From Cladocopium goreaui (lineage: Eukaryota; Sar; Dinophyceae; Suessiales; Symbiodiniaceae), in NCBI GenBank assembly GCA_947184155.2, contig CAMXCT020001022.1, forward strand, positions 65,001 through 129,000: a stretch of 64,000 nt of DNA. The letters run 5' to 3'. Positions 2,726 through 31,547 of the stretch are shown here, in pieces. The notes under the pieces are model-generated. The model ran no database searches, was not told the origin of the DNA, and saw only the letters and a list, made by a program, of their open reading frames with translations. Within the stretch, counting starts at the first letter, position 1. The number at the start of each line of letters is the position of its first letter. Made by a program: the position numbers and the translations under genes.

Positions 2726-5447
2726 TAATTAGAAAATGAAAAAATGATACCTCCCCACCCCCCAACCAAACCCTAAATGGCTAAATCAAGTAATTAGATA
2801 AGAAGAATGATGGTTTCCGTGTTGCTCAAAGTGATGTTTTCCGTGTTGCCCAGAGTGACCGTCCAAAGTGTGAGGAGTGTGTGATTTCTGGATGTTGCCT
2901 GAAGTGATGCGTTTGGTGTCCCCAAAGTGATGCGGGTACCCCGGTGCCTTCGTGATTTTGCCCACATGAAGCCATCCGGGTCCTCGTGCAATAGTGGGCG
3001 GGATTTTCACTTTGCTTTACCCTCACAAAAGAAACAACGCACGGCGTCACACACCGAGCGAATCAACTGCCAAATTCATCGGGTTCGCAGCGGATAGGCA
3101 AGGATGCATAGGAAAAAAAAGTAAAAACATATACTGTATATATATAATATATATATATGTCAGTTGATCGATTTTCAGCACCGGCATCGGCATCATCCAA
3201 AAACTGCGGTACCCCTTTTGACCCGCGCTAACCCGCACCCATATTTGGGGCTGTGCGCCTCTGTTTTCGGACAAAAAAAGCACATAATATGATGTTGTAA
3301 ACTGGTCATAGCCATTTTTTTGATTAATTTCAACCCATGCACGAAGATATGGGATAAGAAACCCAATGCAAACCCGAAAAGATGCAAATTACGTTTCATT
3401 GTTTTAGGGGGCTATGCGTACATCCTATTTACAGTATTATTATGTATATTTAAGTATATTTATTCATCATGTCAATAATGCGCTCCAACGCCCCACGGTT
3501 CCCTGGTTCCCAGGTCCACAGTTTTGGCCCTGCAAGTGGCCTTGGCCAAGCTCCTTGATAGCGCTGTGAAACCTGGAGCGCAAGGACCGTCGCCGCTCCT
3601 GGGAACGTTGCAGAAGCTTGGTGCAGGGAGACGGTTGGGCTGGGGCGTGTCATCGGTGAAGCATCAGTTGCAGGACAAAATCATTCCAGAATAGAGGATT
3701 TCATGTTTAGGCCAGCCCAACACCCATCAGATGATAAGTTTATAGTGAGCGAGGATGGCATGTGGCTCGCGAGGTGTCGTGTACTCTTGTGTTTCGGTTT
3801 GCCTATACAATCGTTTTGGCTGGCAGCATTCATATCACTTTTGGATGCATGTGTTTGTTATAGTTATTGTTTATATTGTTTGTTTTGTTTTCAGCATAAA
3901 TGCCAATCCAAATCCACATACAAACGAAAAAAGTTTTGCTCAACAAAAACACCAAACATACATTTCTTATTATGATCTTAAAATTCATGCATTTCGTGTG
4001 TTCTCCGAAAATAGTTGAATTGGAAACTGCAACTGTTTGGTCAACTAAATTTTGCCCCTGAAATGACTTGAACCCATAATGATCAAACAATAACAAAAAT
4101 TCTGGCCGCCGGAGTTTTGATTTTTCAGTCCATACGCATTGCACCAAGGACCTTGCCGCCACAGGGGGCTCGTCAGGCACGGGTTCTTGTAGTAAGGGGC
4201 TATATGATGCTAGGCTGTGCGCTGTCATGCTGCTTTGATTTTATGTGTTGCATATTTGCGCCATAAGATATACCAAACACATGCCATGGACGTCCGGGCG
4301 GTCCATTAAATTTGAACTGGCAGGTTGAAACTGATAGGGATCGCATGGATCACTGGGTGCAGGAAGGTGTTGGAAACAAGTTTCTGTAACATTTCAAGAT
4401 GTGACCGTTCAGGGTACATAGACGGACCATGGACTGAGTCGCTTGGTCACCAGTAAACCATCCCCAAGTTGTGGTTTATCCTTGGCTATTTCCCTACAGC
4501 GGGATGATTCAAAAAAAGGGATTGCCATGACTCAGGTGATGACTCGGATATCCAAGCTCTATAGCGTGGTTGTTGGCATGCTGGTGTCTGCTGAGAGAAT
4601 CCTGAATGCAAAAAAACATTGTCTATGGATGAAGACATCACAGGCTTCATGAAGGTCATGGTGTCCGTTTTGAAAACAGTCGAGCCATCAGACAGATTTT
4701 GTTTTTGCAAGTATAGCGACCATAAACCAAAGAGGCTCTGTTGTTGCCCAAAACAGAACCACGTTTGAGGGCACATATTATCAATTCTACTTAACTACAA
4801 TGCTAATGTTGTTGCCCAAAGCCGAGAAACAGATTGTAACATTCTGCTGAAGGCGAAGCTAGAGGAGACTCCCATTTGCTGGCCAGAACCACATGGTTTT
4901 CCATATTCTTCCCTCGGCGACCATCCCGAGAAAAGAATGATCCATAGGCCGCTGGCATACCCACAGCGTCTTGAAACTCATGCATTTTAGTATCAACATT
5001 GCAACACTTAAAACAATCTCGATACATTGCTGGACAAATATGTTTGTTTGTTCCGACTTCAAGGATCACGTTGGGTTTGCAACTTCAAGCTTCTCAGGCA
5101 AGTGTCTGGGCGATCCTTTGCTAGAACTGCTTGCCCAGCTCCAGTTGATCTCAGGCGTGGCATCACCATCCTACAATTTTCATGAGAGGAGGGCATGGGG
5201 TTAACAAAAACTAACATTCCTCAAAATCCATGTTGCTGGCATGTTTTTCATAACCTTAAGATGTTTACAATATTTCCAATTGTTACCTACATTTGGCCAA
5301 TTTTGCGAGGTAGACGGAGGCAAATTGTATGGTCTGCGCGGCAGATGGGTTCCAGCCCTGTTCACTTGCCATTGTATTTTCTGCCAGGCACACCACTTCG
5401 ATCGCTGCGCCAGGCGCTACAACATGTTGCAGATTCGTTGCCGCTGA
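1400..5447 (+). CDS. four-exon gene, 165-residue Cys/His-containing protein
   Basis: Predicted exons are 1400-1554, 3514-3655, 4129-4191 and 5310-5447. The ATG at 1400 opens 51 codons ending at a GTAAGA donor. Downstream borders are CAG acceptor/GTGAAG donor, CAG/GTAAGG and a GAG acceptor. The phases 2, 0, 0 match at every junction and the total is 498 nt, giving 165 residues and a TGA stop. The protein starts MEDASEDVTSELLDALLSGW (acidic, helical), has a Leu-rich second exon (ALQVALAKLLDSAV) and a last exon with a CHCIFC cluster plus HH and RC, which could bind zinc. I do not recognise a family. Introns are 0.5-2 kb and AT-rich. Further exons may be missing (for example 1998-2163). The consistent phase is the main support. 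Confidence 0.5.
1998..2163 (+). other. candidate exon (open frame)
   Basis: An island of higher GC with an open plus frame including GSDEMKGTGIHVETCANSKT and RRVRPPVPRRLPSLAVSRRS. It lies inside the first intron of the model at 1400-5447. Borders are not convincing and the minus strand is also open, so it is only a candidate alternative exon. Confidence 0.2.
2628..2730. repeat. 27-bp tandem repeat plus ATC microsatellite
   Basis: Three imperfect copies of a roughly 27-bp unit containing GCATCGCTTCGGGCTACG are followed directly by an (ATC)n run at about 2694-2724. It lies in an intron. Confidence 0.75.
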
Positions 5448-15078: not shown

Positions 15079-18000
15079 GATCCAGCTCCAGAAGTCAGAC
15101 TTCAAGCCATTGAAATTGCAGGTGCTTGGTTTGAGGCGGAGTGCAAGTGGTGAGATCCAGAAAGTCAATGGCGATTTAATGGGATAATTTGCGAGCCATG
15201 GATTCAATATCCATTGGAGTGGAGAAGAGACGTCATTTGTGGTTCTCTTCCTCATTCTGGGGTGGGACGCAGTTGAATCAGTTTACCGTACCCTACCATA
15301 CCAAAGTGGGCAAAACATATATGAACGAAGGGGATCTCTGAATTCCTCACAGGGGAGGAGCGGAGATAAGCCACTTCGAGAGAAACCTATTGGGGCCCAA
15401 CGACTAGAACCTTTTGGGGCCGCAGGGTGACCTGGATGACCCTGCTCTTGTACGAGAGGCACTGGGCCGCCGCGGCTGGGGGTATGATTTGGGCGGTGAA
15501 AGCTGGGGTTAACAAAAATGAAGTCCATGTTTTTATGCTGCTGCAAATTCTGAGCTTCTGTTCAAAGCATTGCCATTATTTGCGATTTGTATCCATTTGT
15601 GTTTTTCAAAGTGCTTCGTTGCGATGATCAAATTTGTGCTGGGGCAACCATAGTCTCAATCCTCATGAGATGGTATAATTATTGTATAAGCATGATATAG
15701 GATATTAAAAGCTCAAATTATATATGCAAATTTTCAAATAATATGTCACATATCCCCTAGCCGCATATTCCTCCATCAACGAAACGACATACCAATCAAT
15801 CTATAACATGTTAAAACCCAATGTTCTGTCAATGCTACCCAAATCTTCAAATATATATATATATATATGTATTTTCATGTTTAGATATCACACCAATACC
15901 ATATCATCCATGTTAAACCCTTTGCCACATATTCATATCAGTGATAGACTAGATCAATAGTAAAAACTTTTACAACTCAGTGTGTTGTGTATCACTAGAG
16001 AGTCATGAGTATTTCATACGATGGCTAAGTTGAAGTATCCCATGATCTGGATATTCTATCCTACATTCTATGAATCGAGCCGCATCTCAGATACCTTACT
16101 GAGATGCGCCTTGGAGTTAGTCAGCGGCAAGTGGGGTATGATTCATTCCCTAGTTCCAAAAAATATGTATAACCAATGTACTACCAACTGAACTAACTTG
16201 ATGAAGCATCTATATCAGTATGATATCATTGGGATTTAACCATCCCCGCAAAGGTCTCCCCGCAATAATAGATGCTTAATATGTACCCTTATTAGCGGTT
16301 GTTGCTTGCCAACAAGCCTGCCCCAAAAAAAAAACATGGATCCGTTCCCGTTCCCTCGAATGTCAAATACCTCTCTTGAAACTGCTGTTTAGTATTGGAT
16401 CCGTTCATTTTCGGGCTCATATTGGTACTCTTTCTTTGGGGGGGCTTAATGGTGAATTGTTAACGGCTTATTTAGCAACAAAAAAATAAGAAACCCATTG
16501 TTTTGCCATCCATTATTGGGATGGTCACCATTTTGGGTGTTGAATCCTTATGAATTTTGGTGACACCCCTCTCAAAAAAAACTTCTATCCCTATACCCCG
16601 ATTTGAATCCGATGCTTGGAGGATCATCCCAGCAGCGGTTAGTAACCTTGGCTAATAAGTCACCATTTCATCGGTTTTCCACTTGAAAGCGGGGTATAGC
16701 CCCCTTACAAACTGTTTACTACTTGGAAGTGCAGTTCCAGTTATGCATGGAAGTTACGGGTAGTTACCAATTTTGGGGGTTTTAAAGCACTTGCTATACC
16801 ATGTTATACCTATTTGTAACTTTAACTGCGCCTCCAAGTATGGTACTGTAATTCTCACAAATTCCCCCATTGTGCACCCACCAAACCTTCATCTTTCATT
16901 GTTAAACAACCATTTCCCGCTATTAATCACTATTATTCACGATTAACCACTTTTAATCAATATTAATTACTATCAATCACTATTAATCACTATTAGTCAC
17001 TATTAGCCACTATTAAATCAGTATTAATCATTATTAATCAGTATTAATCACTATTAATCACTAATCATCACTATTATATAACCACTATTAATCATTATTA
17101 ATCAATATTAACCACTTTTAATCACTATTCATTTCTATTAATCATTATGAGTCACCATTAATCATTATTAATCACTATTAACCACTATTAACCACTATTA
17201 ATCATTATTAATCACTATTAATCACTATTAATCACTATTAGTCACTATTAATCCTGATCAACCAATGGATAGTTGATTTCTTTCCTGGTTGGGAATGGTG
17301 GGAAGATACTCCAAAATTTGCGAGGCGGCAAGTCACCTGGCGGAGCGCAGCCGCGACAGCGAGCCACGCGTCAGCGCGGCGGCGTCGGGCGCTTTGGTGC
17401 CCCCTGTTTTTGTGGCGTTATAGATCAGGGTACAACATCCAAGTGGACATTTTATGGAAAATGATGATAGTCCAATTGATGATATTTGCCAACCATATTT
17501 CCAGGTATCAGATTTCCCACTTTTCTATATATATATATATTTATGTTGATTATGTTGGGTTTGCCATGATGAATGTTGGGTGATGAATTTATAGACATCC
17601 CCAGCCTCGGATGGGTAGAAACTAATCCTTCAGATGATAACTATGATTACTACCATAAGACCCATAACTACAGGTTTTTTTTGTGGTGGGGCCACCAGGC
17701 ACCCGGTCTTGGTTTCTCAGCTCTCCGACGACGACTTCGCACGGGTGGCCAATCTCGCGTTGACGGCGCCGGTGCGCCTGAATTGCCGGGGCAAGAGGGG
17801 CACAGGTGTTCCAAATGGAGGTGTTTGAAAATGGGGCCCCAAAATGGTTAGTTTCGTAGCGAAAATTATTATGATCCATTGGAACTGATGCTCATGTTCT
17901 GACCTTTCCCAATGGGTATGTCTGCGAAAGGGGTGTACCCATGTGTACCCGATGCAAATCTGATACCAAAACATGATTCAACAGTGGACTTTAGGGGTAC

Positions 18001-18798: not shown

Positions 18799-18971
18799 CC
18801 TCCATTAGTACAGTTGGGTAATATATATATATATATATGATGTGGGAGACCCAAGGCCATAAACCTACCGAACTTGGGGAGGGGTTATAACAACCATAAA
18901 ATTGGTGATTTTGGCGATGGTTTATTTGTTGGGTCTATCACATTATGTATGTATGATATATATATATATAT

Positions 18972-19120
18972 TGTAAAAACTCCTGCAGTAAAACCATGTA
19001 TTGTATATATCATCGATCTGCCCGATAGCGTTGGTTCAAAAGTACCAGGAGCTGAGCGGTTTGTAGGTTCACCCCATTAGTGTTGTAATACCTAATTGGT
19101 GGCTGACCTGTGAATATACA
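18972..19120 (+). repeat. 5' LTR (149 bp)
   Basis: Begins TGTAAAAACTCCTGCAG and ends GTGAATATACA; identical to 31124-31272. It should contain the promoter. A TATATATCATC stretch inside could serve as a core element, but this is a guess. Confidence 0.95.
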
Positions 19121-19142
19121 GGTTATCAGCCGTAGTCTCACC
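19121..19142 (+). other. primer-binding site, half-tRNA type
   Basis: Directly after the LTR end, GGTTATCAGCCGTAGTCTCA. Its complement reads as a tRNA anticodon arm: a five-base 5' stem (TACGG), a seven-base loop CTGATAA (anticodon GAT, isoleucine) and the first two bases of the 3' stem (CC). Drosophila copia is known to prime from a 5' half of initiator tRNA-Met cut in the anticodon stem, and its site also starts GGTTAT. That this element uses a half tRNA is inference from the match to a broken-tRNA end rather than to a CCA end. Confidence 0.6.
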
Positions 19143-19150
19143 ACTTTGCT

Positions 19151-22100
19151 ATGGGGACCCCAATCGACCATCCTCTCGCCGTTCCAGGGTCAGGTCCATC
19201 GGCTGTCGCTGTGCCTAATATGGCCGGGGGCAACCCCGAGCCGATGGATGACGAAACAATGTTCCAACCCGTTTTTGTTGTTGCGTACTTTACCTTCATA
19301 CAAAACAACCTGTCCCAGATTACTAGTGGGAATACCCTGCAAGTCATGAGGGAAGCTGAACAGAGGCACCTTCAGATAATGCATGGAGTAGTTGACTCAA
19401 TTCGAAACGAATGGTCAAGTAGACTCGTAATGCAGGAACAGGAGTATGAGCAAAGGCTGCAGGAGGTTGAAGGTAATGCCATTAGTGCCCTCAACGAGGA
19501 GAGGAAACGAGGCGACGAGATGGAGGTCAGGTTGAATCAGGCTCAGGCATCGCATGACAAAAGAATAGAGGATGTAAAGGCAGAGGCAAACACAAAGCAT
19601 GATCAGAAAATTGCAGAGGAAAGAAAACGTATCACTAGTGAATTTGAAGCTTCCTATGCACAGACAGTTGAACATGCAAAGAATGCCATAGCTGCCACAA
19701 AGAAGCAATATGAAGACCAGGCTGCAATTGATCAGGCCAGGTTCATCAGTTTGAGGACTGAGTTTGAGAACTACAAGAAGGAGATGGCCGACAAGATCAA
19801 CGAGGCAGCGGCTCAGAACCTTAGCCTTCAGGACCAAATCGATGATCTTCAGGAGCAGTTAAAGCATGTTGCCAAAGCGCAGCATGCCTCCGTTCCGAAA
19901 GCATCCGTCCAGAACGCCGAGCCGGCCGCTACCACTAGCGTGACCCACTTCAATATTGCCACTCCCAAAGCATCCGATGCACAGGCTGCCAAAGGCAGTG
20001 ATGAGCCGATTCTTGAGTTTAAGACGCCTGCAGTGTTGGCGCAGGAAGCAAAGGCCAAGTTGGATGAGCTGCTCAAAGGTGGCAGTCCCAAGCAAAAGCC
20101 GGCTGTCGGCAACGACCAGCCCCAATTGCCAACGCAGTCAGGGTTTTTCACTCCCACTGAAGCTATCAAAACTCCCCCAAATGAATCTCCCAAGAGCGCA
20201 ACCAAGCAACAGCAAGTAATGGGTCCCTCAGATCTTATTGAATTGGTGAAAGCCTTAACCCAAAGGGAAGAAAAGGATAAGCCAAAAACTAAGGAGGCTG
20301 AACTCATCAAGCTGAACAACATGCCCGCTCCGGAGTCATATAGAACTTGGAAGAATCATGTCAGGGATGAAGTGAAGAGCTGTTCAGATCGCCCGGATGA
20401 GGCGTGGCTCTGGCTCAACGAGGTGTACGATCAAGAGTGCACCAGAGAGCAGTTGGAGAAGAAACTCCAAGATCCTGGAAAGTTCCTTACGCTGGATACA
20501 AAGTTATCAGCAGCGCTCACGCGCTCAGCCGGAGGGGACCTCGCAACTAGGATCTTGAATTTCAAGGAGCAGCAATCCCGAAAAGGCATCCAGGTCAGGG
20601 GAAGATATGTTCTGCTTATGTTTGAGGACTACTTCAAGACATCAGAAGAAGCAGGTAGCCTTTACAGAGTAGAAGATCTTTTGGGTGTTGTCAAAGTAGG
20701 CGATACTGTCCAGGATCTCCGAAGATTCATCAACAAATGGGATGCTACCCTAGCTGGCATGGCTGTCACCCCTGATGATGCTGTGTTAAGGGACATCTTG
20801 TTGAGGCAGATCCGACCAAGTCAGTTGCTGAAATATGACATCGAGGTGTTTGACCGTGCTCATGAGAAATCCCATGAAAAGTCTTACAGTTTTCTTCACC
20901 AATCCATGAAGAACTTGATCGATCGTGAACGATTGAGGGAGAACAGGAACCGCATTGCGGAGAAGAACAAGGCTGGGATTAAGGACACAAAGGCCGCACC
21001 CGCCAAAGGCGATGGTCGCGGCGGCCGAAAGGGCTCTCCAAGTCGCGGTAGATCGCAGGAACGAGGTAGCAAAGGCGACAAGATTTGCTATAAGTTCCAA
21101 AAGGGTACCTGTGATAAGGGGAAGAAGTGTCCATTCAAGCATGTCAAAGATGATAAATCTCGAACTCAATCACCCAGAAGAACCAAAACACGTTCACCAT
21201 CAAGGGGCAATAAGGATGATAAGGGGAAGAAGATGTCTAAAGAAGAAATGGCTAAAACCCCATGCATCTATCATGCCCAGGGAAAGTGCAGACGTGGTGA
21301 CAAATGTTTTTATAAACATGATGACAAAGCCGCTGCCGCCACCAAAGACACCAAAAGGGCCAATTCACCCGCTCCCAAGAAGAAGGGCAAGGATTCCACA
21401 GCCGCTCCATGTCTGATCCAGAAGTTTGCATGCATCGTCCGAAAACAGCCGAAGGCAACTTCGTGCTCTGATGAGGCAAGTGTTAGCATGAAGCGTCTTA
21501 GATTCCGAAAGGCCCCACATGTGATCGAGGTGAAGGCAGTCGGTCGTCAAGTCCCAGTCAAGCACCGTCCAAGAGAGTTCACTAAGGTGTACAAGACAGC
21601 TGAAGATGTTCCAGTTTCATCAAAGGTTGAACAGCATGAAGCTCAGGTTCGTGCAAGACAGCTCCAAGAAACTGTGAAACTTCATGATTCAGATGTTGCA
21701 CCAAGTTGTGGGTTTTGTTGTTGGGATGAGGACACACGCGACATCACATGCAAAGAGTGCAGGTTCATCAGCGGTCCCAAAGCCCTTAGAGACATTGGTC
21801 GTTTCCCGTCAATTGCCACAGCTGCGCCAAAGGCCGGCGTTAGTTGGCTTGTTGACTCAGGTAGTGAATCCGATCTTGTGTCCAAAGGAATGCTGAGGGA
21901 CGTAAGTGCCAAGAACTGCCGTGCAGCCGAGCATCCGATTTCCTTAGTCACAGCCAATGGTTCGACCGAGGCAAATGAAGTTGCTGATGTCAAGTTGTCC
22001 GCATTGCCAGATCCCGTGCATCCGTATGTGCTTGATCATACCCCAGCTGTGCTCTCTGTAGGAACGAGATGCGTAGATCAGGGTTACAGTTTCGTATGGC

Positions 22101-25100
22101 CTGCCAATGGCAAACCAATCCTAGTCCGTCCAGATGACAAGGTCGTCCAGCTCAAGATCGAAGGTCATGTCCCAATCTTGGATGATAGTTGCAAGGTTTA
22201 TCCCAAAGATCAATTTCAAAAGGATAAGCACCTCAAAAAGTTGTTTGCAATGCCGACCTCACGGTCGAGCTCAAAAGCCAAGCGGGACGAAGCCCAAGAT
22301 GAAGAGCAGTTGGATGAGTTGGTGGAGGATGACGCTCAGCAGGAGTACATCCGAAGCCGCAAGACTGAGGATCTGTTGGCTGAAGCTGCAAGTACCCAAC
22401 ATCAGTACACGCATTTCCCCAAGAACCCCTTTTGCAGAACTTGCCAACGAGCAAGGATGATGGCACCTCAGGCACGAAAGAAGGGTGGTCAGAAGAGAAT
22501 CGAAACTGAAGTGTTTGGTGACCACATCATTGGGGATCATGTCATCATCAAGAAAAATGTAGAAGAGGGTTTCAGGGGGGAGCAAGTTGCGTTGGTGTTG
22601 AAAGATCTGCACACCCAATATCGGTATGTCTACCCTAGCCAGTCCAAGGACTCACAAAGCTGTGTTGATGGTTTGAATCACTTCATTGGATCAAAGGATG
22701 ATGTTCAAGTTGTGTACACTGACAATTCCCCAGAATTGATCAGGGCCATCAAGGATTTGGGTTACAGACACCAAACTTCCATTGAATACGTAGATTCATC
22801 AAAGTCTTTTGCTGAGCGCGAAGTTCGTCAGATGTTGGAAGGTGCCCGGAGCAACTTGTTGCAATCAGGACTTCCTCTGAAGATGTGGCCATTGGCCATG
22901 CAGCATCATGCGACCGCGATCAACGCAAGCCCCCAGCTTGACGGCAGTGATTCCCCATGGCAACTCAGGTTTGGTGAAGAGTTCCCTGCAATGCACATTC
23001 CATTTGGTGCCAAAGTGTTGTTCTGGAATAACCCCAAGAGGTTGGATAACACATCAGGTAAGCTCTCCCCAACAGCAAATGAAGGAATTTTCCTTGGGTA
23101 TTACATCCAACCAGGTCATGATTGGAAGGGTGAATACTTAGTTGCCAAGTTGGAAGCCGCAGATTATCATGTCAACTGGGGTGCACTGACAATCCAAAGA
23201 ACAAAGAGGTTGGAATTGCCATCCGAGGGTTTCATCTTTCCTTTGAAAGCTCTGATCGACTCGAAAGCACCCAAAGCCGATCGCCTCGAGGACCAGGTCA
23301 TTCCGCAGACACCCAAAGCTGTGCCTCTTGAGTCCAGTTTGCATCCACCGCAAGATGAGTATGAATACGAGCCAGGTACGCCTCTACCAGCCGACAGCGA
23401 TGTCGAGCCTGATGCACCCGAAGCGCCCGTATTTCCAGATCTCAAATTGACCCCCAAAGGTGAAATTATTCCAGATGGACATCATTGGGATGGTCACCGG
23501 ATTGTACGTAACTACAAAGGTTCAAAGCGTCCGGAGGGGATTGACTCAGAACTGTGGAAGATGTTAGGACCCCAAGATAGGAAGCTGATCATCGAGGAAG
23601 AAGCAAAGAAAGCAGCCAAGGAGCAGGAGGAAAAGCCAGTATCATCATCTGGCAGCAAGGGCAAAAAGAAGAAATCTTCACCGGCCCGGCTTGAGGCAAC
23701 TCAATGCCCTCCTGCAACTGCAAAGCTCGTAGGCAATGTTTGGGAAATCATTCCAGCCAATTCCCAAAAGTTTTCCGTGCCGGCAATGCCAAAAGTTGCC
23801 GCGCCTGCCACAATTGAGCACCGGCCTCGAATTAGAGAGCTCGTCCGAGAGAAGATCAAGGAACTTGAGTTCAAGGTCGCACTCGAGCTTTTCGCTTCAG
23901 TTGCTAGGCTTGTATCAAAAGATGAGATTGCCAGCAACCCCAAGGCCAAGGCCGCCCTTGATAAGGAGTGGGATAATCTCCGTAATAAGGGTGTTTGGGA
24001 TGAGAAGCGTGTTCGTGAATGCCGCGACATAGTAGCTGAGGCTCGTCGCAATGGCCAAACTGTGCACCTAGGTCGAATCTTTGAGGCTTGCTATGAGAAG
24101 GGTTCTGAATTGCCTGAGTCAGACCCTCGCCGGAAGTTCAAGGGTAGGACGGTTTTCCAAGGGAACAATGTCAGGGACGAGAATTCCGATCACGCACTCT
24201 TCAACGAGTTAGGCTCTTCCCCAGCATCCATGGAAGCAGCAAAGCTGCTAGATGCTTTCGGTAGTCAGCCCGGGTTCTCCAAACAGCAGGCAGATGCAAT
24301 CCAAGCCTACATACAAGCCCTCTTCACAGGGGTGCCCACATGGTTGTCACTTCCACGCAACAGATGGCCCAAAGATTGGGAGAAAAAGTACTGGCAACCC
24401 ATGGTTCCTATGTTACTTGCCCTTTATGGTCATCCTGATAGCGGGGGTATTTGGGAAAATCATCTCAATAGCCGTGTGGTGAAACAGGGTTGGAAGCAAA
24501 TTTTACCTGACATTTGGCATTCAATTTTTCATCATCAAGAGCTCAACTGTCTTTTGGTTGTGTATGTAGATGACTTCAAGATGGCTGGCCCTACTGCCAA
24601 TCTAGAAAAGGCATGGGCAAGCGTCAAGGCTGCAGTGAACATTGGTGATCCTGAGCCATATGACCGCTACTTTGGCTGTATGCACCGTGAATTTCACAAC
24701 ATCCGGTTGCCTTCGCAGGCACACCCTTTCGCATTCGCCTTTGAAGCCAAGAAGTCAGCAGCCGCACAACATAGAACACAAGACTGGTGGGAGCATGATG
24801 AAACCAACATGGCATGGATCAGACACCACATTCAACCCCGAAAAAGATTGTACCAGCCGGTTGATGAGGGGGGAGATGTAACTTGTCAAAATTCAAGTCG
24901 CATAACTTTCTTTGACAAAAAGGTAACACTGAAAAGTTGTCCTAGCATCACCGACGGGAACAATCAGGGGGGCTATGATGTTTACACAGATGATTGGAAA
25001 ACATCTAGCAATCAAACAAATGAATTCTGGACAGGAAAAACAGTTTTCTGTTATGGACAAGATGGACCTGACAAATTCAAGCAGTTTGCAATGGCAAGTA

Positions 25101-28100
25101 AAGCCAGACCAGGACCACATCGCGACAAACGCGAGGCGAAAAAGGAAGCCAAGGCCTCTAAGTTCAAGGGGGTTGAACACGCCGTGAAGAACAAAGCTGG
25201 CGTCATGGCCAAGCCCGTGAACTTAGTAAGGTATGACATGAGCGATTTCCTGGGGTCCTGCGTAGAAAATTATTGTAATCTTGCAAAAGTCAGCCCATCG
25301 TCTTTGAAAGAGGTGCCAACACCATTCACAGATGCTGGCATCGCACGGCCTACACTCAGTGAAGATGAAAAGCCTGGCAAACTCCAGCCAGTGGCCAGCA
25401 AGATCTTAATGAAGATACTCTTTGCCGCCAGAATGGCAAGGTTCGACTTGTTGCGTGCCACACAAAGCTTAGCATCTAGAGTGACAAAATGGTCCATAGA
25501 ATGCGACTTTGCCTTGCACAGATTGGTGTCATACATACATTGTACGAAGCACCATTTCCTAGAGGGTTTCATTGGGGATGCCTTTGATGAATGCCAACTC
25601 TGGCTTTTTGCCGATGCAGATCATGCAGGCGAACATGATAGCAAGAGTACCACTGGCAGTGCCATTGTGCTTGTTGGCCCCAACACGTATTACCCCTTAA
25701 ATGCGTTCAGTAAGAAACAAACGGTTGTTGCCATATCGTCAACTGAGGCTGAGGTAGTTGCCGCAAATCACAGCATGAGAGCTGAGGGCATTCCAATGCT
25801 GGCCCTGTTTGAGCAGTTGAACCTTTTCAAGAAGCTGCAGGGCAAACCAGCTCGCGATGCCGCGAAGCCCCAAGAAGATGTTGTGTTCACTAGGATTGAC
25901 CCTGAAATTGACGAAATCCGTAATGGGAATGTCGATACAGGTTGTAGTGTCGCGGACATCAACTCCCTCAAGGCCAGTTTCCCTGAATTTTATCAAGTCA
26001 AATTTATGGAGGACAACCAGGCGACTATTACAGTCATGTCCACCGGTTCATCAGCATCCATGAGACACATGAACAAAACACAAAACATCAACTTCAAATG
26101 GTTGAAACAGCAATTTGAATGTAAACAGTTCGATCTTCTCAACGTAGGAACCAGTTTCCAAGTTGCAGACATTCTCACAAAACCTTTTGCCCGACCAGCC
26201 CTTTGGTTGCATGCCATTCACCTCATTGGCATTGGCCCGACAAAGGTGGAAGAAGCAGCAGCCCGCCACACAGCGGCGCCGAACTCCACTAAGGTGCCAA
26301 AACTAGCAACCGCTGCCGGGAATCAGGGGGGCTCCCAAAAGTCTTTTAAGCCCAGAATGTTGATCGAATTTTGCTGCTCTGATGATTCGAAGCTTAGTAC
26401 CCCAAGAAAGTCCAATGAAGATTGCCACTGCATTAGGGTTACCGAAAAAGAAGATGGTACCACTAACAGCTGTCGGCAACGGCTAGCCTCCCAAGTCCAA
26501 GATTTCAGAAATGATTTCAATGACGGCACTTTGATACTCTATGCATCGTTGCCTTGTGTAGGAGGTAGCCCATGGGGGAACGTGAATGGCCTTACTGTTG
26601 AGGGTCAAGAAAGAATCAAAGAGCAACAAAAACAGTTTACCAAGTTGTTCAAATCTTTTGTCAAACTTGTGGATGAAGTTTATGATGAACGAACCTTGAT
26701 AGCATTTGAACTGTCCAAGAATTGCAAATATTGGAGATGGCCGATGGTTAGAAGATTCCTTAAAGAACGATCCATGACTACTCATCACTTTGATGGTTGT
26801 ATGTTGGGTGTTCTTGGAAACAGCGGTCAACCAATGAAGAAAAGTTGGACTATTGCAGGAAATTTTAAAGAATTCACCGTGTTAGACTCATTCAAATGTG
26901 ATGGCAAACATGAGCATGATCAAAGTAGGGGCAAAGCTCTTAAACTTGCTGAGAACTATACCTTCAAGTTGACTGACATGCTCCATGAGTGTTTCCGGGT
27001 AGCTGTGGTGGGCCAAACATCCAAAAGGATTTCACCCGTTGTCATTCGTGCCTGTCCTGCAAAAATGGCTGACTCACGATATGCCACAGCACACCCGGCC
27101 AGCCGCGAGGCTGCGCTCGAAGCCACACGTGAGGCTAACAAAGAAGCATGGTTGCTCCTTCACAATCGCATTTTGTATGCATTGGCCATGCGCAATGAAG
27201 GTGAGAATCAGGCTGCTCAGGACCTTGTGGATGGTTTGATGACCGAATGGACGCCGGCTTCGGCCCTGAGGTTCTATGGTCGAGAGGATCCGCTTGCAGA
27301 ATACCTTAGTTTCTGCTTTTTGCCAAAGGAGTCCCACATCGAAAAGATCATGCTGCCAGAGATGCCCGTCAATGACGTAATCTGGATCTTAGTCTCTGAC
27401 TCGTCATGTGCATTGATCACAGGGCGTAGGAAGACACTTAAGAAGTTTGATCTTTCCGAGCACTACCGACAGCGCAAACCCAAGTACGTGACTGAGTTCA
27501 TCCACGAGATGCTTTGGGGCAAAACTTTGCAGAGGTTGGTAAAGAGAGGGATCGAATTGGCCGCGGACGCCCGCGAGCGCTATCCTCATGCACGCATCAA
27601 CCTGCACTTGTCCTGGTTCGGAAATGAATTGGTAGGGGAGGATGGAATTGCCCAAAATCCAAATTGGCCGTACGATGGTCCCAACGGGCACTGGCCCACG
27701 ATCCTGGATGATTGTGAGCGCCACTTGACATGGTTCATCAACAAGGCCCGGGAGTTGGACTTGCAGACGGCCGGTCTCACGACCGCGCCCTGGAGCGCAG
27801 ATTACGGCATTCATCCAATTTTCGATCAATTTTTCGACCATTTGGAGCCCCGATTCAAAGCTCTAACCAGCAGCCTGCAAGGGCGTGCCAATCCGCGGTA
27901 TCCGTGGCTAAAAGCAAAGGGGTACGCCGATGCAATGGAATTCAGAGACCAGTGGCATTTCGCTAACTCTGAGGAAAATCGCACGCGCCTTGCTGCCTAT
28001 TGGACAGCTACCCTTTTCGCACTTGATTCCGGATGGCGGGTCGGCCAAATTGGTTTGGAGCTTTCTGAGTGTGCCCAGGAGACATGGGATGATTTGCGGA

Positions 28101-30901
28101 GGAAGATGAGCGCCGTCCTGGACGAGCTGCCAAGATCCTATCAGGAGACATGTGCAAACATCACCAAGTTGCTTTTTGGAGAGTCCCGAAGACACATCGT
28201 GCCGACGGGCAGGTCATTCACCAAGGAGGACGTCGAAGCTCAACAACCTGACACTGAGGACTACATCGACATCAAGACGTTGCCTTCGGGCACGTTTGCT
28301 GAGCCTCCCAAAGATGACCCTCCAAAGGCCGCCGGCGACGGCGAGCCCGCTGCATCCAGCAGAGCAACAATCCTGGTCCAGACAGCTGAGGTCATGTTGA
28401 AGTCGCGGCCGAAAGCAGCACCAGCATCAATGGATGAGCCCGCAGATGACAAGGGAGCCACATCCAGCCAGTACCAGCCGCAGGCAACTGCGCGCTTCGA
28501 GGGACAAGCATCTGGCCACGTGAAAGCATATTGGATGGAAGAGCATTTGCCTGAATACCAATATACAATGGTGACCAATGCAGACGGGGACGATGTGCCT
28601 GGCATCCTCTTTGAAGGTACGGCTTATGAGCTGGAGCTGATATCGGCATCCGACGTTGAGACCATTGCCAGCCAGACTCGCGTCGACAAGAAGTTTTCTG
28701 ATTTTGCGACTCGTGTCAACAAAGTTTGCAGGGGGCATGGATCCTGTGCCAAGGTGCCAATGGACAAAGACCTTTGGATTGACTTGGAGGATTTCGCCAA
28801 AGCCTTCCGCAAGGAAGTGCCCCCAGATGTTTTCATCACTGTTGCAAACCTGTTTGGCACCGCAATGAAGATCGACAAGCATGGCAAGAGTAGGTTCCAA
28901 TTCTTGTGTGCAAAGATTTCCCATTTTCCTGTCGACAATGGCCTAGGCATGCCGTATTATCCTGTGAAAATCCGTGCAATTCAGGGTCACTCCGAAGCTG
29001 CCTTGAAAACCGCAGGGGGTCTTTATGCCAATTCAACCATGGTGTATTGCTCAGACCATGTATCCCCCGAGCGAAAAGCCGCCTTCACTGGCGTGCCCCT
29101 GTGTGCCATGACTGAGGTTCCTGAGGTTGTCTTCCATCGCACGATGAAAAGCAGCTGGAAGAGCATCGCACAGAACGGCCTGATCCCAGGCGGCGGTGCA
29201 ACAGTCAACAGTGGCCGTGCCCATATCTATATGGCAGAACACTGTATTGGCACGCAGGGGTATCGATCTGGATTAAGAGCAAAATGTCCAATCGAAGTCA
29301 AAATCGCAATGCGGCAAGCAGTTGAAGCTGGTGTCATCTTTAGTCGCACAGAAATGGATGGGATTTTGTGCTCAGAACGCATCCCACCGCAGTTTCTGGT
29401 CAGCATCTCAGAAGAAGGACAGGTGCTTTGGTCCCGCGCCGAGAGCAATCTCGAGCCCAGCACATGGACTGGCGCGGCGTCTGCCTCAGCACCGAAAGCC
29501 AAAGCGGTCACCTTGACTGCCCGAGATGATGCAAATGACGACCCAATGGATGACACCAGCACGGGGCGACCCGATGCCAAGTCCACTGATGATGATGCAG
29601 CCACTGCCTCAATGCAAGTTGACCAGCCGCCCGCAAGGACGGGCCGTGTTTACATTGCACCCAAGTACTGCGAACCTTTCATGGGCTCCTGTCCCCTCTG
29701 CCAGGTTGAGTACGTCAGTGGCCAAGTGACATGCACCACATGTGGTTTTGAGCCACTCCCAGTGGACGAAAGTGGCGATACAAAAGAGGCCAACAAACCC
29801 AACAGGAGGACCCGCATCCTTGAACGGCGAATGCAAAGTCTCGCCGGGTTCGGAATGTTTGGGAAGATGAGCGGAAGCTTGCTGACAGCCTTGACGGAAG
29901 AGCAAGCCAACCTGCTACGCCGAGAACTGGGCCCCAGGGGAATCACATCCGTGGAATCAGCAGTCCTCAAAGACTGCCGCGACAGGCATCGACGTGCAAA
30001 AGCGCTGGGCTACGAGGACGTGGAAGATAGATACTCCAGCGACGTCACTTTTTGCGACCGCATCCACGGTGAGGGGAAGGACCTGCAGGACTGCATATTT
30101 GACGATATGTTCGCATATGGCAACCTCCCCGATCCCCCAAGGACCAAAGCTCAGATCTCGGCTGGCGTCGCCGCCAATGCCCAAAATGAGAACTGCTTAT
30201 CTAAGTTGATTTTCATGTCTCAGCCTCGTGGCGTTGATGGCTTCCCAGTTGAGTTCCGCAAAACATGGAAGAAGGTCTGGGGTTTCATGTTTGGCCGCCA
30301 CATTTTTACAGAGGATGAATATGTCAGCTACATCGGCCGTCGTGGCGCATTCCGTGGCCTGTTGACCTGGAAGGGTACTGTCCAAGTCCCTCTTGATGGC
30401 ACTCGTGATTTCCTCGAAAAGGTGTATGAGGAAAACCTTCCCTTGGTTCGGAGCAATCTTGAACGCAAAGAGAAGCAGAGCGCCGCTGCAAAGGCTGGAG
30501 GTCCTGGAGGTCATAAGGCCGACCCCACGGTCGCGCCCACCATTGAGCGAAAGCGCAAAGCCGAAGCTGATGCATCCGCAACCGCAACAGATGTCACAGC
30601 CGCCTCAAGCTCTGCTCGCGCAGATGCCTCGCACGCTGATGCCCCAGCCGCACCATTTCTGGTACCCGAACCACCAACATCCAAAGCAGGAGCACGACCA
30701 TTCTTGGAGCCTGAGACACCGCCCACTGCAAAAGCAGCAACCGCAGGAGTCACTTCGAAGGCTGCAAGCTCCGGTCGCCCGGATGCCTCTTGGAGTTGGA
30801 ATCGTGATCACTATGGTGCACGCCGAGAATGGAGTTTCTGGCGTGGAGCTTGGTATTACCGTGACGAGGCCGGCGGCCGTTGGATCTTTTGGAACCGTTA
30901 G
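19151..30901 (+). CDS. copia gag-pol polyprotein with KptA/Tpt1 extension (3916 residues)
   Basis: The first ATG after an in-frame TAG at 19133 opens 3916 codons to TAG 30899. Order by residue: Gag with coiled coil (about 60-240); two CCCH zinc fingers (first Cys 646 and 705); a Cys-rich CGFCCW block; aspartic protease WLVDSGSES (Asp902); integrase with zinc-binding HFPKNPFCRTC (Cys1095) and catalytic Asp1129, Asp1191 and Glu1222/1224; reverse transcriptase YVDD at 1805-1808; RNase H FADADHAGEHDSKSTTG (Asp2155), Glu2199 and Asp2288. Ty1/copia order (integrase before reverse transcriptase) is clear. After RNase H come a methyltransferase-like part (2404-2530), an SGNH-like part (2749-2940), a KptA/Tpt1 domain (about 3179-3420), a zinc ribbon (CPLC at 3514) and a Pro/Ala-rich, then Trp-rich, tail. 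Gag and Pol share one frame, so protein ratios need another mechanism. Typical copia polyproteins are about 1300-1500 residues. Confidence 0.95.
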   Translation: MGTPIDHPLAVPGSGPSAVAVPNMAGGNPEPMDDETMFQPVFVVAYFTFIQNNLSQITSGNTLQVMREAEQRHLQIMHGVVDSIRNEWSSRLVMQEQEYEQRLQEVEGNAISALNEERKRGDEMEVRLNQAQASHDKRIEDVKAEANTKHDQKIAEERKRITSEFEASYAQTVEHAKNAIAATKKQYEDQAAIDQARFISLRTEFENYKKEMADKINEAAAQNLSLQDQIDDLQEQLKHVAKAQHASVPKASVQNAEPAATTSVTHFNIATPKASDAQAAKGSDEPILEFKTPAVLAQEAKAKLDELLKGGSPKQKPAVGNDQPQLPTQSGFFTPTEAIKTPPNESPKSATKQQQVMGPSDLIELVKALTQREEKDKPKTKEAELIKLNNMPAPESYRTWKNHVRDEVKSCSDRPDEAWLWLNEVYDQECTREQLEKKLQDPGKFLTLDTKLSAALTRSAGGDLATRILNFKEQQSRKGIQVRGRYVLLMFEDYFKTSEEAGSLYRVEDLLGVVKVGDTVQDLRRFINKWDATLAGMAVTPDDAVLRDILLRQIRPSQLLKYDIEVFDRAHEKSHEKSYSFLHQSMKNLIDRERLRENRNRIAEKNKAGIKDTKAAPAKGDGRGGRKGSPSRGRSQERGSKGDKICYKFQKGTCDKGKKCPFKHVKDDKSRTQSPRRTKTRSPSRGNKDDKGKKMSKEEMAKTPCIYHAQGKCRRGDKCFYKHDDKAAAATKDTKRANSPAPKKKGKDSTAAPCLIQKFACIVRKQPKATSCSDEASVSMKRLRFRKAPHVIEVKAVGRQVPVKHRPREFTKVYKTAEDVPVSSKVEQHEAQVRARQLQETVKLHDSDVAPSCGFCCWDEDTRDITCKECRFISGPKALRDIGRFPSIATAAPKAGVSWLVDSGSESDLVSKGMLRDVSAKNCRAAEHPISLVTANGSTEANEVADVKLSALPDPVHPYVLDHTPAVLSVGTRCVDQGYSFVWPANGKPILVRPDDKVVQLKIEGHVPILDDSCKVYPKDQFQKDKHLKKLFAMPTSRSSSKAKRDEAQDEEQLDELVEDDAQQEYIRSRKTEDLLAEAASTQHQYTHFPKNPFCRTCQRARMMAPQARKKGGQKRIETEVFGDHIIGDHVIIKKNVEEGFRGEQVALVLKDLHTQYRYVYPSQSKDSQSCVDGLNHFIGSKDDVQVVYTDNSPELIRAIKDLGYRHQTSIEYVDSSKSFAEREVRQMLEGARSNLLQSGLPLKMWPLAMQHHATAINASPQLDGSDSPWQLRFGEEFPAMHIPFGAKVLFWNNPKRLDNTSGKLSPTANEGIFLGYYIQPGHDWKGEYLVAKLEAADYHVNWGALTIQRTKRLELPSEGFIFPLKALIDSKAPKADRLEDQVIPQTPKAVPLESSLHPPQDEYEYEPGTPLPADSDVEPDAPEAPVFPDLKLTPKGEIIPDGHHWDGHRIVRNYKGSKRPEGIDSELWKMLGPQDRKLIIEEEAKKAAKEQEEKPVSSSGSKGKKKKSSPARLEATQCPPATAKLVGNVWEIIPANSQKFSVPAMPKVAAPATIEHRPRIRELVREKIKELEFKVALELFASVARLVSKDEIASNPKAKAALDKEWDNLRNKGVWDEKRVRECRDIVAEARRNGQTVHLGRIFEACYEKGSELPESDPRRKFKGRTVFQGNNVRDENSDHALFNELGSSPASMEAAKLLDAFGSQPGFSKQQADAIQAYIQALFTGVPTWLSLPRNRWPKDWEKKYWQPMVPMLLALYGHPDSGGIWENHLNSRVVKQGWKQILPDIWHSIFHHQELNCLLVVYVDDFKMAGPTANLEKAWASVKAAVNIGDPEPYDRYFGCMHREFHNIRLPSQAHPFAFAFEAKKSAAAQHRTQDWWEHDETNMAWIRHHIQPRKRLYQPVDEGGDVTCQNSSRITFFDKKVTLKSCPSITDGNNQGGYDVYTDDWKTSSNQTNEFWTGKTVFCYGQDGPDKFKQFAMASKARPGPHRDKREAKKEAKASKFKGVEHAVKNKAGVMAKPVNLVRYDMSDFLGSCVENYCNLAKVSPSSLKEVPTPFTDAGIARPTLSEDEKPGKLQPVASKILMKILFAARMARFDLLRATQSLASRVTKWSIECDFALHRLVSYIHCTKHHFLEGFIGDAFDECQLWLFADADHAGEHDSKSTTGSAIVLVGPNTYYPLNAFSKKQTVVAISSTEAEVVAANHSMRAEGIPMLALFEQLNLFKKLQGKPARDAAKPQEDVVFTRIDPEIDEIRNGNVDTGCSVADINSLKASFPEFYQVKFMEDNQATITVMSTGSSASMRHMNKTQNINFKWLKQQFECKQFDLLNVGTSFQVADILTKPFARPALWLHAIHLIGIGPTKVEEAAARHTAAPNSTKVPKLATAAGNQGGSQKSFKPRMLIEFCCSDDSKLSTPRKSNEDCHCIRVTEKEDGTTNSCRQRLASQVQDFRNDFNDGTLILYASLPCVGGSPWGNVNGLTVEGQERIKEQQKQFTKLFKSFVKLVDEVYDERTLIAFELSKNCKYWRWPMVRRFLKERSMTTHHFDGCMLGVLGNSGQPMKKSWTIAGNFKEFTVLDSFKCDGKHEHDQSRGKALKLAENYTFKLTDMLHECFRVAVVGQTSKRISPVVIRACPAKMADSRYATAHPASREAALEATREANKEAWLLLHNRILYALAMRNEGENQAAQDLVDGLMTEWTPASALRFYGREDPLAEYLSFCFLPKESHIEKIMLPEMPVNDVIWILVSDSSCALITGRRKTLKKFDLSEHYRQRKPKYVTEFIHEMLWGKTLQRLVKRGIELAADARERYPHARINLHLSWFGNELVGEDGIAQNPNWPYDGPNGHWPTILDDCERHLTWFINKARELDLQTAGLTTAPWSADYGIHPIFDQFFDHLEPRFKALTSSLQGRANPRYPWLKAKGYADAMEFRDQWHFANSEENRTRLAAYWTATLFALDSGWRVGQIGLELSECAQETWDDLRRKMSAVLDELPRSYQETCANITKLLFGESRRHIVPTGRSFTKEDVEAQQPDTEDYIDIKTLPSGTFAEPPKDDPPKAAGDGEPAASSRATILVQTAEVMLKSRPKAAPASMDEPADDKGATSSQYQPQATARFEGQASGHVKAYWMEEHLPEYQYTMVTNADGDDVPGILFEGTAYELELISASDVETIASQTRVDKKFSDFATRVNKVCRGHGSCAKVPMDKDLWIDLEDFAKAFRKEVPPDVFITVANLFGTAMKIDKHGKSRFQFLCAKISHFPVDNGLGMPYYPVKIRAIQGHSEAALKTAGGLYANSTMVYCSDHVSPERKAAFTGVPLCAMTEVPEVVFHRTMKSSWKSIAQNGLIPGGGATVNSGRAHIYMAEHCIGTQGYRSGLRAKCPIEVKIAMRQAVEAGVIFSRTEMDGILCSERIPPQFLVSISEEGQVLWSRAESNLEPSTWTGAASASAPKAKAVTLTARDDANDDPMDDTSTGRPDAKSTDDDAATASMQVDQPPARTGRVYIAPKYCEPFMGSCPLCQVEYVSGQVTCTTCGFEPLPVDESGDTKEANKPNRRTRILERRMQSLAGFGMFGKMSGSLLTALTEEQANLLRRELGPRGITSVESAVLKDCRDRHRRAKALGYEDVEDRYSSDVTFCDRIHGEGKDLQDCIFDDMFAYGNLPDPPRTKAQISAGVAANAQNENCLSKLIFMSQPRGVDGFPVEFRKTWKKVWGFMFGRHIFTEDEYVSYIGRRGAFRGLLTWKGTVQVPLDGTRDFLEKVYEENLPLVRSNLERKEKQSAAAKAGGPGGHKADPTVAPTIERKRKAEADASATATDVTAASSSARADASHADAPAAPFLVPEPPTSKAGARPFLEPETPPTAKAATAGVTSKAASSGRPDASWSWNRDHYGARREWSFWRGAWYYRDEAGGRWIFWNR
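21086..21319 (+). other. two CCCH zinc fingers in Gag
   Basis: CYKFQKGTCDKGKKCPFKH (residues 646-664) and CIYHAQGKCRRGDKCFYKH (705-723) both follow C-x7-C-x5-C-x3-H. These are CCCH fingers as in RNA-binding proteins, not the CCHC knuckle usual in copia Gag. They are separated by an Arg/Ser/Lys-rich linker. Presumed role: packaging of element RNA. Confidence 0.9.
26351..27010 (+). other. methyltransferase-like segment after RNase H
   Basis: Residues about 2402-2620. LIEFCCSDDSKLS could be a degenerate AdoMet-binding motif I. LYASLPCVGGSPWGN places a Pro-Cys as in motif IV of C5 cytosine methyltransferases. IAFELSKNCKYW stands where the ENV motif VI would be. Spacing (about 65 and 50 residues) is reasonable, but the glycine-rich loop and ENV are not intact. 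Cytosine methyltransferases are reported in Symbiodinium retrotransposons (de Mendoza and colleagues, 2018). Whether this is a relative is inference; a profile search would decide. Confidence 0.35.
27380..28040 (+). other. SGNH-hydrolase-like segment
   Basis: Residues about 2744-2960. The order of three blocks fits a GDSL/SGNH fold: ILVSDSSCALITG (block I, Ser in DSS, about 2751), SWFGNELVGE (block III, Gly-Asn at 2824-2825) and FRDQWHFANSEENRTRLAAY (block V, Asp2933 and His2936 in a D-x2-H pair). Some LINE elements carry SGNH esterases of uncertain role. The match rests on motif order and spacing only. Confidence 0.45.
28685..29413 (+). other. RNA 2'-phosphotransferase (KptA/Tpt1) domain
   Basis: Residues about 3179-3421 match both lobes of the family. 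N lobe: KKFSDFATRVNKVCRGHG in the place of the family's SKFLSxxLRH, LWIDLEDFAKAF for the GWxxVxxLL block, then KSRFQF before KIRAIQGHS (family IRANQGHS, 3273-3281). C lobe: VVFHRTMKSSWKSIAQNGL (family LYHGT...I..KGL), RAHIYMAEH (family R.HVHLS), a GLRAKCPIEVKI strand, VEAGVIFSRTEMDGIL (family G..FY.S.NGVWLT) and IPPQFLVSI. The enzyme uses NAD+ to remove the 2'-phosphate left by tRNA splicing. Oddities: the Arg-His pair is split by a glycine (R3194-G-H3196), and HGT is HRT, so activity is uncertain. Confidence 0.85.
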
Positions 30902-31107: not shown

Positions 31108-31123
31108 GCTCGCCCGAGGGGGG
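31108..31123 (+). other. polypurine tract
   Basis: A short G-rich purine run (CGAGGGGGG) abuts the TG of the 3' LTR, as expected for the plus-strand primer of an LTR element. The stretch 30902-31107 is the element's untranslated 3' part with no further frame. Confidence 0.7.
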
Positions 31124-31272
31124 TGTAAAAACTCCTGCAGTAAAACCATGTATTGTATATATCATCGATCTGCCCGATAGCGTTGGTTCAAAAGTACCAG
31201 GAGCTGAGCGGTTTGTAGGTTCACCCCATTAGTGTTGTAATACCTAATTGGTGGCTGACCTGTGAATATACA
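31124..31272 (+). repeat. 3' LTR (149 bp)
   Basis: Identical to 18972-19120; followed by a TATAT target duplication within a TA microsatellite. Confidence 0.95.
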
Positions 31273-31547
31273 TATATATATATATATGTGGCACATTGCA
31301 AAAAGATAGACAGTGTTTCCAGGATGGTAGTTCGATGATGTTTTCCCCATCATTTCGAGATGTTCTATTTTCCTATCGTCCTTTTGGAGGTTGCTATAAT
31401 GGGGATATTTGTGGCATATAATGGGTATAATGAGGTACATGGAATAGTACCTTGACCTGATATGTTGTCAACCTTGCGTTTAATTGGGGATTTAGCCATG
31501 TGTTGGATGATGACTATGACCATTTTATGGGATATGCTGGGGATATT

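Follow-up and report, generated by a model that had tools for sequence, protein, structure and literature searches.

Why does a retrotransposon of a dinoflagellate carry, near the end of its polyprotein, a domain of the tRNA-repair family KptA/Tpt1, and what could the domain do for the element? The question is raised by a 64,000-nucleotide stretch of the Cladocopium goreaui genome (contig CAMXCT020001022.1), here called the window. The window holds one intact gag-pol open reading frame (ORF) on the + strand, 3,921 codons long and without an internal stop (19136-30901); a preliminary description of this DNA had already called the frame intact. The frame belongs to a recently inserted long terminal repeat (LTR) retrotransposon of 12.3 kb and copia type, a label based on the LTR anatomy, a sub-threshold RVT_2 match and reading of the sequence; the insertion is taken as recent because both LTRs are identical. 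We found that the domain in question is almost certainly a two-lobe domain of KptA/Tpt1 type and that it is very probably functional for the element, with an active site that departs from the known enzymes at two fixed positions. Our favoured reading, to which we give an even chance, is that it is an NAD+-dependent enzyme acting on phosphorylated nucleic-acid ends during replication.

Is the domain truly a member of this family? The Pfam model PF01885 (curated cut-off 26 bits) matched the whole window ORF at residues 3199-3413 (E 1.6e-10, 41.8 bits) and a 438-residue piece of it at E 3e-12 and 47.4 bits; the domain spans residues 3184-3421. The match is not a product of chance, because a profile built from three cellular-type KptA sequences of the same assembly scored the window piece at 37.6 bits, against 6.5 bits for the best of 2,000 shuffled versions of the domain. 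Moreover, profile-profile alignment assigned the KptA-like domain a probability of 99.5%, and a profile search matched human TRPT1 across the NAD+ lobe (E 4.2e-5). The predicted model holds a winged-helix RNA lobe followed by an NAD+ lobe of the ADP-ribosyltransferase (ART) type, and both aligned with Tpt1. All of its top 18 fold matches in the PDB (Foldseek) were Tpt1/KptA structures, five of them at E <=0.001, and the best was mouse 7yw2 (E 1.5e-6); the best PDB matches were mammalian (mouse and human), not bacterial. Fitted singly, the lobes gave 3.1 Å over 98 residues (yeast Tpt1) and 3.0 Å over 80 (La motif). The preliminary description had built its case on sequence blocks that lie where it placed them: KKFSDFATRV at residue 3185 (nucleotide 28688), WIDLEDFAKAF at 3214, KIRAIQGHS at 3278, FHRTMKSSW at 3333, AHIYMA at 3362, AGVIFSRTEMDGIL at 3398 and IPPQFL at 3416. 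It would have given up the identification for want of a family match or of an NAD+-binding lobe; the PF01885 match is over its cut-off, the NAD+-binding lobe is present in the model, and Pfam, fold search, profile comparison and purifying selection agree on the two-lobe identity.

The domain is present as first described, not in a single copia element but in many copies. Genomic searches covered the window's assembly (1.17 Gb, 6,202 contigs), in which a first look with PF01885 gave 1,496 candidates; the best 150 were scored, and 150 of 150 exceeded the cut-off. Internal stops occurred in five of these 150 rows, which take in three cellular-type genes and other element types and in which the open-frame fraction is biased upwards, the best candidates having been scored first. 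From the 150 we picked 40 loci, non-randomly: 15 of family A, to which the window element belongs, 18 of family B and 7 others. Family B is a second copia family with the domain, its rows having longest ORFs of about 4,030 residues. Reading of 6 kb from one B copy shows the pol order of family A and, upstream of KptA, the second accessory domain of the window element; RVT_2 matched this B copy at E 0.0053 (Pfam).

Do these copies preserve the domain? We calculated ratios of nonsynonymous to synonymous substitution (dN/dS; Nei-Gojobori, pooled over 120 pairs) for all 15 A loci plus the window and for 16 of the 18 B loci, with L058 and L075 excluded for broken or shifted frames. In family A the whole domain gave 0.098 (16 sequences, synonymous sites of L069 and L070 being saturated against the window), with 0.083 for the RNA lobe, 0.081 for the NAD+ lobe, 0.189 for the stretch between them and 0.171 for the upstream linker. 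The family B domain gave 0.045 and each of its lobes 0.040 (16 sequences). For comparison, reverse transcriptase (RT) gave 0.029 and KptA 0.060 in the same 12 A sequences, namely the window and 11 of the 15 A loci, the remaining four stretches having given no RT match. By these ratios the domain is under strong purifying selection in both families, in family A more loosely than RT but clearly so.

The active site is where the domain parts from its relatives. We number residues as in Clostridium thermocellum Tpt1, with equivalents assigned by alignment. In that enzyme Arg18 and Arg68 grip the 2'-phosphate, His19 contacts only the adjacent 3'-phosphate, Arg121 binds both the phosphates of NAD+ and the 3'-phosphate, Arg139 contributes to a cage around the pyrophosphate, and His101 and Thr103 of the HGT motif hold the adenosine ribose (PMC6333775). 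A position-by-position count found the equivalents of Arg18, Arg68, Arg121 and Arg139 kept in 32 of 32 A and B sequences. In the same 32, His19 is replaced by Gly, so that the tetrad Arg-His-Arg-Arg reads Arg-Gly-Arg-Arg, and HGT reads HRT (Gly102 to Arg, with His101 and Thr103 kept), a change that the preliminary description had seen in the window. It had also read the Arg-His pair as split by one glycine, which holds for family A (Arg-Gly-His, 16 of 16) and fails for family B (Arg-Gly-Gln, 16 of 16). Since Gly is followed by His in A, by Gln in B and by Leu, Ile or Thr in certain relatives from the database, only Arg-Gly is general, and Gly is best regarded as standing where Tpt1 has its His. 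The shifted His could still act in family A, which would not make it general across copia domains. The changes are fixed while the remainder of the domain is constrained, and the altered site therefore looks like re-tooling rather than decay. Because of His19 to Gly and HGT to HRT, we do not class the copia domain as an RNA 2'-phosphotransferase; it is a derived KptA-fold domain. Of the original label, the KptA/Tpt1 part stands; tetrad, HGT motif and the NCBIfam equivalog score depart from the enzyme, and RNA repair as its activity is no more than a hypothesis.

How did copia elements come by such a domain? In a tree that omits L072 and L074 and that has long branches and unsettled forks, a branch with 100/98 support sets families A and B, together with P0083, a more distant relative from the database (39% identity), apart from the other sequences, which fits a single acquisition of the domain by copia. 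Of the candidates scored in two protein searches, 595 and 7,997 in number, 54 and 99 respectively were listed as matches; the two sets overlap and consist mostly of contig translations, with one eukaryote gene model. A cellular source for the captured domain exists, since the same assembly has a host-type KptA gene with all motifs present. A viral source is possible as well; the viral contigs that were scanned held 26 matches to the search pattern, of which none was confirmed.

Two further kinds of carrier group outside the copia domains in the tree. Type C (L073, L074, L079) has the complete tetrad and HGT; its KptA frame and the end of an RVT_1-type RT frame (E 2.3e-4, under the cut-off) overlap. 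Type D makes up 22 of the best 150 rows (E 5e-26 to 2e-23), and eight of its sequences were fetched, L006:1489-2049 and L116 among them. Whole-domain alignments of L006 and L076 show Arg-His intact and Arg68 replaced by Ala, with HGT (L006) or HGS (L076) as the NAD+ motif. By reading, L116 and L006 have RT- and RNase H-like motifs and L006 a methyltransferase-like end, and on that basis we regard type D as a retroelement-like ORF that is not copia. Its assignment to DIRS or DNMT-bearing elements was dropped: Pfam, NCBIfam and PDB sequence searches returned no RT, RNase H or DNMT, the nearest match being HIV-1 RT at E 1.4. Since neither C nor D groups within copia, KptA has probably been captured more than once by retroelements; the long branches and open forks leave unsettled whether C and D are separate captures. 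Two side observations belong here. In L079:5224-7422 the KptA ORF is followed by an ORF with a weak match to a RanBP-type zinc finger. L072 (contig C5927) holds a very diverged KptA-like ORF, with LRH and IRAVQGHS and with HVT for HGT, and a second match about 15 kb off.

What might the re-tooled domain do? The preliminary description had suggested three roles: mending RNA ends for priming, shielding element RNA from host responses that damage RNA, and NAD+-dependent modification of nucleic-acid ends. Under the favoured reading, it would keep the 2'-phosphate grip (Arg18, Arg68) and the NAD+ pyrophosphate grip (Arg121, Arg139), and the loss of His19 would shift it from internal splice-junction 2'-phosphates to terminal phosphates, because the lost tetrad residue contacts only the 3'-phosphate. 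Candidate substrates would be the 2'-phosphate ends that metal-independent RNases leave on primer or element RNA, or the 5'-phosphates of RNA or cDNA. Such ends, once cleaned or ADP-ribosylated, could become extendable, or be shielded, while the element replicates. End chemistry beyond tRNA splicing is within the reach of the family, since TRPT1 is able to ADP-ribosylate both RNA and DNA at their 5'-phosphate ends (PMC6582358), and clean-up of 2'-phosphate ends has been proposed for viruses (PMC9503650).

Several observations weigh against this reading. The replacement of His19 and the change of HGT are themselves among them, and in human TRPT1 every single alanine substitution within the tetrad abolished ADP-ribosylation of 5' ends (PMC6582358). 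P0083 has Lys at the Arg121 position. The NCBIfam equivalog cut-off for RNA 2'-phosphotransferase was missed by far (23.5 vs 239 bits), and the arrangement of the lobes in the predicted model is uncertain (predicted template-modelling score, pTM, 0.55; root-mean-square deviation 12 to 16 Å in two-lobe matches). Finally, constraint on KptA is weaker than that on RT in the 12 A copies compared, and no primer tRNA was identified for the 19-nt primer-binding-site (PBS) candidate of the element.

A different view, less probable in our estimate though a serious one, is that the domain has lost all or nearly all of its catalysis and now serves as a module that binds nucleic-acid ends or ADP-ribose, for example by holding the primer tRNA or packaging element RNA. 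The winged-helix lobe and the phosphate-gripping arginines would then have been retained for binding. Yet the NAD+ lobe is constrained equally to the RNA lobe in both families, and the NAD+-contacting residues His101, Thr103, Arg121 and Arg139 are kept. We consider it improbable that the domain is an ordinary RNA 2'-phosphotransferase engaged in RNA repair. It would then strip 2'-phosphates at internal sites or splice junctions of tRNA or of the element's own RNA, such as might arise when host RNases cut an RNA and the pieces are rejoined. Homology and fold (PF01885, Foldseek) speak for such an enzyme, as do the proposal of RNA repair for KptA in viral polyproteins (PMC9503650) and Runella Tpt1, where alanine at the His19 position slowed step 2 just threefold in single turnover (PMC6333775). 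However, the copia domains have fixed changes in both the catalytic and the NAD+ site, whereas the standard residues stand in type C and in the host-type gene, and with that host-type gene the assembly already has a KptA. It is very improbable that the element carries the domain along as a mere passenger, a useless fragment of a captured gene that persists since the C-terminal part needs an open frame. The presence of accessory domains in polyproteins of retrotransposons is described as not stringent (PMC6338049), but an open frame alone does not yield dN/dS of 0.04 to 0.10 and fixed active-site residues in two families, and the inter-lobe stretch and upstream linker evolve faster than the lobes.

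The reading of the domain as an NAD+-dependent end-processing enzyme can be extended, as a tentative and rather doubtful step. The captured KptA would have gained a new terminal-phosphate specificity, healing or ADP-ribosyl-capping the ends of primer, genome or cDNA, and unrelated retroelements would have recruited KptA independently. If true, retroelements in this genome would have a recurring need for NAD+-dependent processing of ends.

One possible link between KptA and replication lies in priming. The PBS of Drosophila copia is a precedent for pairing with a tRNA anticodon loop. The 19-nt pattern of the window's PBS candidate occurs at 212 places with <=2 mismatches, and its reversed control at 0. 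Priming by a half-tRNA was considered and rejected. The reverse complement of the 19 nt resembled an anticodon loop, a likeness that would have linked KptA to the healing of a cleaved tRNA, and by reading a tRNA 3' end fits at least equally. A pattern of anticodon arm plus T-arm was met at two places only, both on contig C1, which looks bacterial; the single exact match to the first guessed pattern was the PBS of another element, and L080 held no tRNA. A half-tRNA priming link to KptA forms no part of the favoured reading. Contig C1 (7.4 Mb) also holds 30 of 40 tRNA matches and a bacterial-type KptA, of which contig C5523 holds another, and the assembly seems to include bacterial contigs (C1, C5523).

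The remaining anatomy of the window element is collected in the table. The element has the two TG...CA LTRs of its class, together with a PBS, as a candidate, and a polypurine tract (PPT), by reading. RVT_2 is the sole RT family that matched the ORF in Pfam, at a score under its cut-off. Reading of the sequence, and no Pfam family, pointed to integrase, protease and RNase H; an HHCC-like stretch upstream of RT may mark the integrase region, for which Pfam gives only a weak SH3_retrovirus match (E 0.094). The KptA-like domain lies near the gag-pol C-terminus, downstream of the second accessory domain. For the latter a Pfam scan returned no family. It carries LPCVGGSPWG and FELSKN motifs, is present by reading in family B too, and is perhaps a diverged C5-methyltransferase, given a weak fold match of its model to human DNMT2. 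Against the same 11 copies, synonymous divergence of the window's KptA stretch is 1.4 to 3.9 times that of its RT stretch; this gap suggests that the window element is a mosaic formed by recombination. Upstream of the element lies an AT-rich array (16889-17290) with a 10-bp unit, about ATTAATCACT.

Table. Features of the copia-type element and its flanks, in window coordinates.
Feature	Position	Strand	Remarks
Target-site duplication candidate TATAT, 5 bp, upstream copy	18967..18971		Repeated at 31273-31277; inside AT repeat, hence weak
5' LTR, 149 bp, TG...CA	18972..19120	+	Identical to 31124-31272
PBS candidate, 19 nt, immediately 3' of 5' LTR	19121..19139	+	Identical 19 nt in family B copies L117 and L118
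gag-pol reading frame, intact, 3,921 codons plus stop	19136..30901	+	Stop-to-stop limits; first ATG 19151
Two CCCH zinc fingers, gag part	21080..21322	+	PF00642 6.9e-6; PF16131 1e-7
Copia-type RT	24131..24676	+	PF07727 RVT_2, E 2.7e-4 in piece, 21 bits vs cut-off 31.6
Second accessory domain, perhaps C5-methyltransferase-like	26303..27205	+	Foldseek top DNMT2, E 6e-4, template-modelling score (TM) 0.28, predicted local distance difference test (pLDDT) 67
KptA-like domain, RNA (winged-helix) lobe	28685..28993	+	Arg18 equivalent in VCRG, Arg68 in KIRAIQGHS
Inter-lobe stretch, 45 residues	28994..29128	+	Exceeds length in aligned cellular enzymes
KptA-like domain, NAD+ (ART) lobe	29129..29398	+	HRT, GRAH, SGLR
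PPT-like CGAGGGGGG, adjoins 3' LTR	31115..31123	+	By reading
3' LTR, 149 bp, TG...CA	31124..31272	+	Identical to 5' LTR
Target-site duplication candidate TATAT, downstream copy	31273..31277		Matches 18967-18971

Has such an element been seen before? The preliminary description knew of no copia element with this enzyme, and in the open-licence literature that we searched, by titles and the starts of abstracts of the papers listed, we found no earlier description of any retroelement with a KptA/Tpt1 domain. Papers that mention both KptA or PF01885 and retrotransposons draw no link between them in the parts available: an Entamoeba Pfam table (PMC4053983), a soybean gene list (PMC3549820), a mussel gene table (PMC11817969) and a report on baculovirus KptA genes (PMC3230848). 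Within the accessible text, the word retrotransposon is absent from PMC9503650, the words KptA, Tpt1 and phosphotransferase from PMC5890265, and phosphotransferase from PMC6338049. On the evidence of the literature searched, no KptA/Tpt1-type domain, and hence no NAD+-enzyme domain of that type, would have been described in a retrotransposon before this one.

Why does this matter? The role of Tpt1/KptA where no 2'-phosphate tRNA-splicing pathway is known has been termed elusive (PMC6582358). With a derived version that a retroelement keeps under strong selection, the action of such domains on the ends of RNA or DNA becomes open to assay, and the natural active-site variants (copia A and B, types C and D) allow their substrates to be compared. 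If unrelated elements did capture KptA repeatedly, retrotransposons in these hosts would be under real pressure from RNA-end damage or NAD+-based conflict.

Set beside Tpt1, KptA and TRPT1 (PF01885; 6e3a, 7yw3), the copia domain shares the lobe order and the equivalents of Arg18, Arg68, Arg121, Arg139, His101 and Thr103; it differs in Gly for His19, Arg for Gly102, a longer inter-lobe stretch and its setting in a retrotransposon polyprotein. KptA is known from phages, sawfly baculoviruses, the Bodo saltans mimivirus and two +RNA-virus polyproteins (PMC9503650). The last of these, in a Beihai picorna-like virus and a Botrylloides leachii nidovirus, share with the window element the capture of the domain into the polyprotein of a replicating RNA element, a likeness by description; their carriers are +RNA viruses, whereas that of the window is a reverse-transcribing LTR element with many genomic copies. 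The DNMT-bearing LINE and DIRS retrotransposons of Symbiodinium (PMC5890265) likewise show repeated capture of a host-type nucleic-acid enzyme in a dinoflagellate genus, but the enzyme is a different one, and the available text reports no copia elements with KptA. With other Ty1/copia elements the window element shares TG...CA LTRs, PBS and PPT candidates and, by a sub-threshold match, an RVT_2-type RT, to which it adds two C-terminal domains, one perhaps methyltransferase-like and one KptA-like. Capture of accessory enzymes by retrotransposons is thus already known, and what is new, so far as the searched literature shows, is the capture of a KptA with a derived active site.

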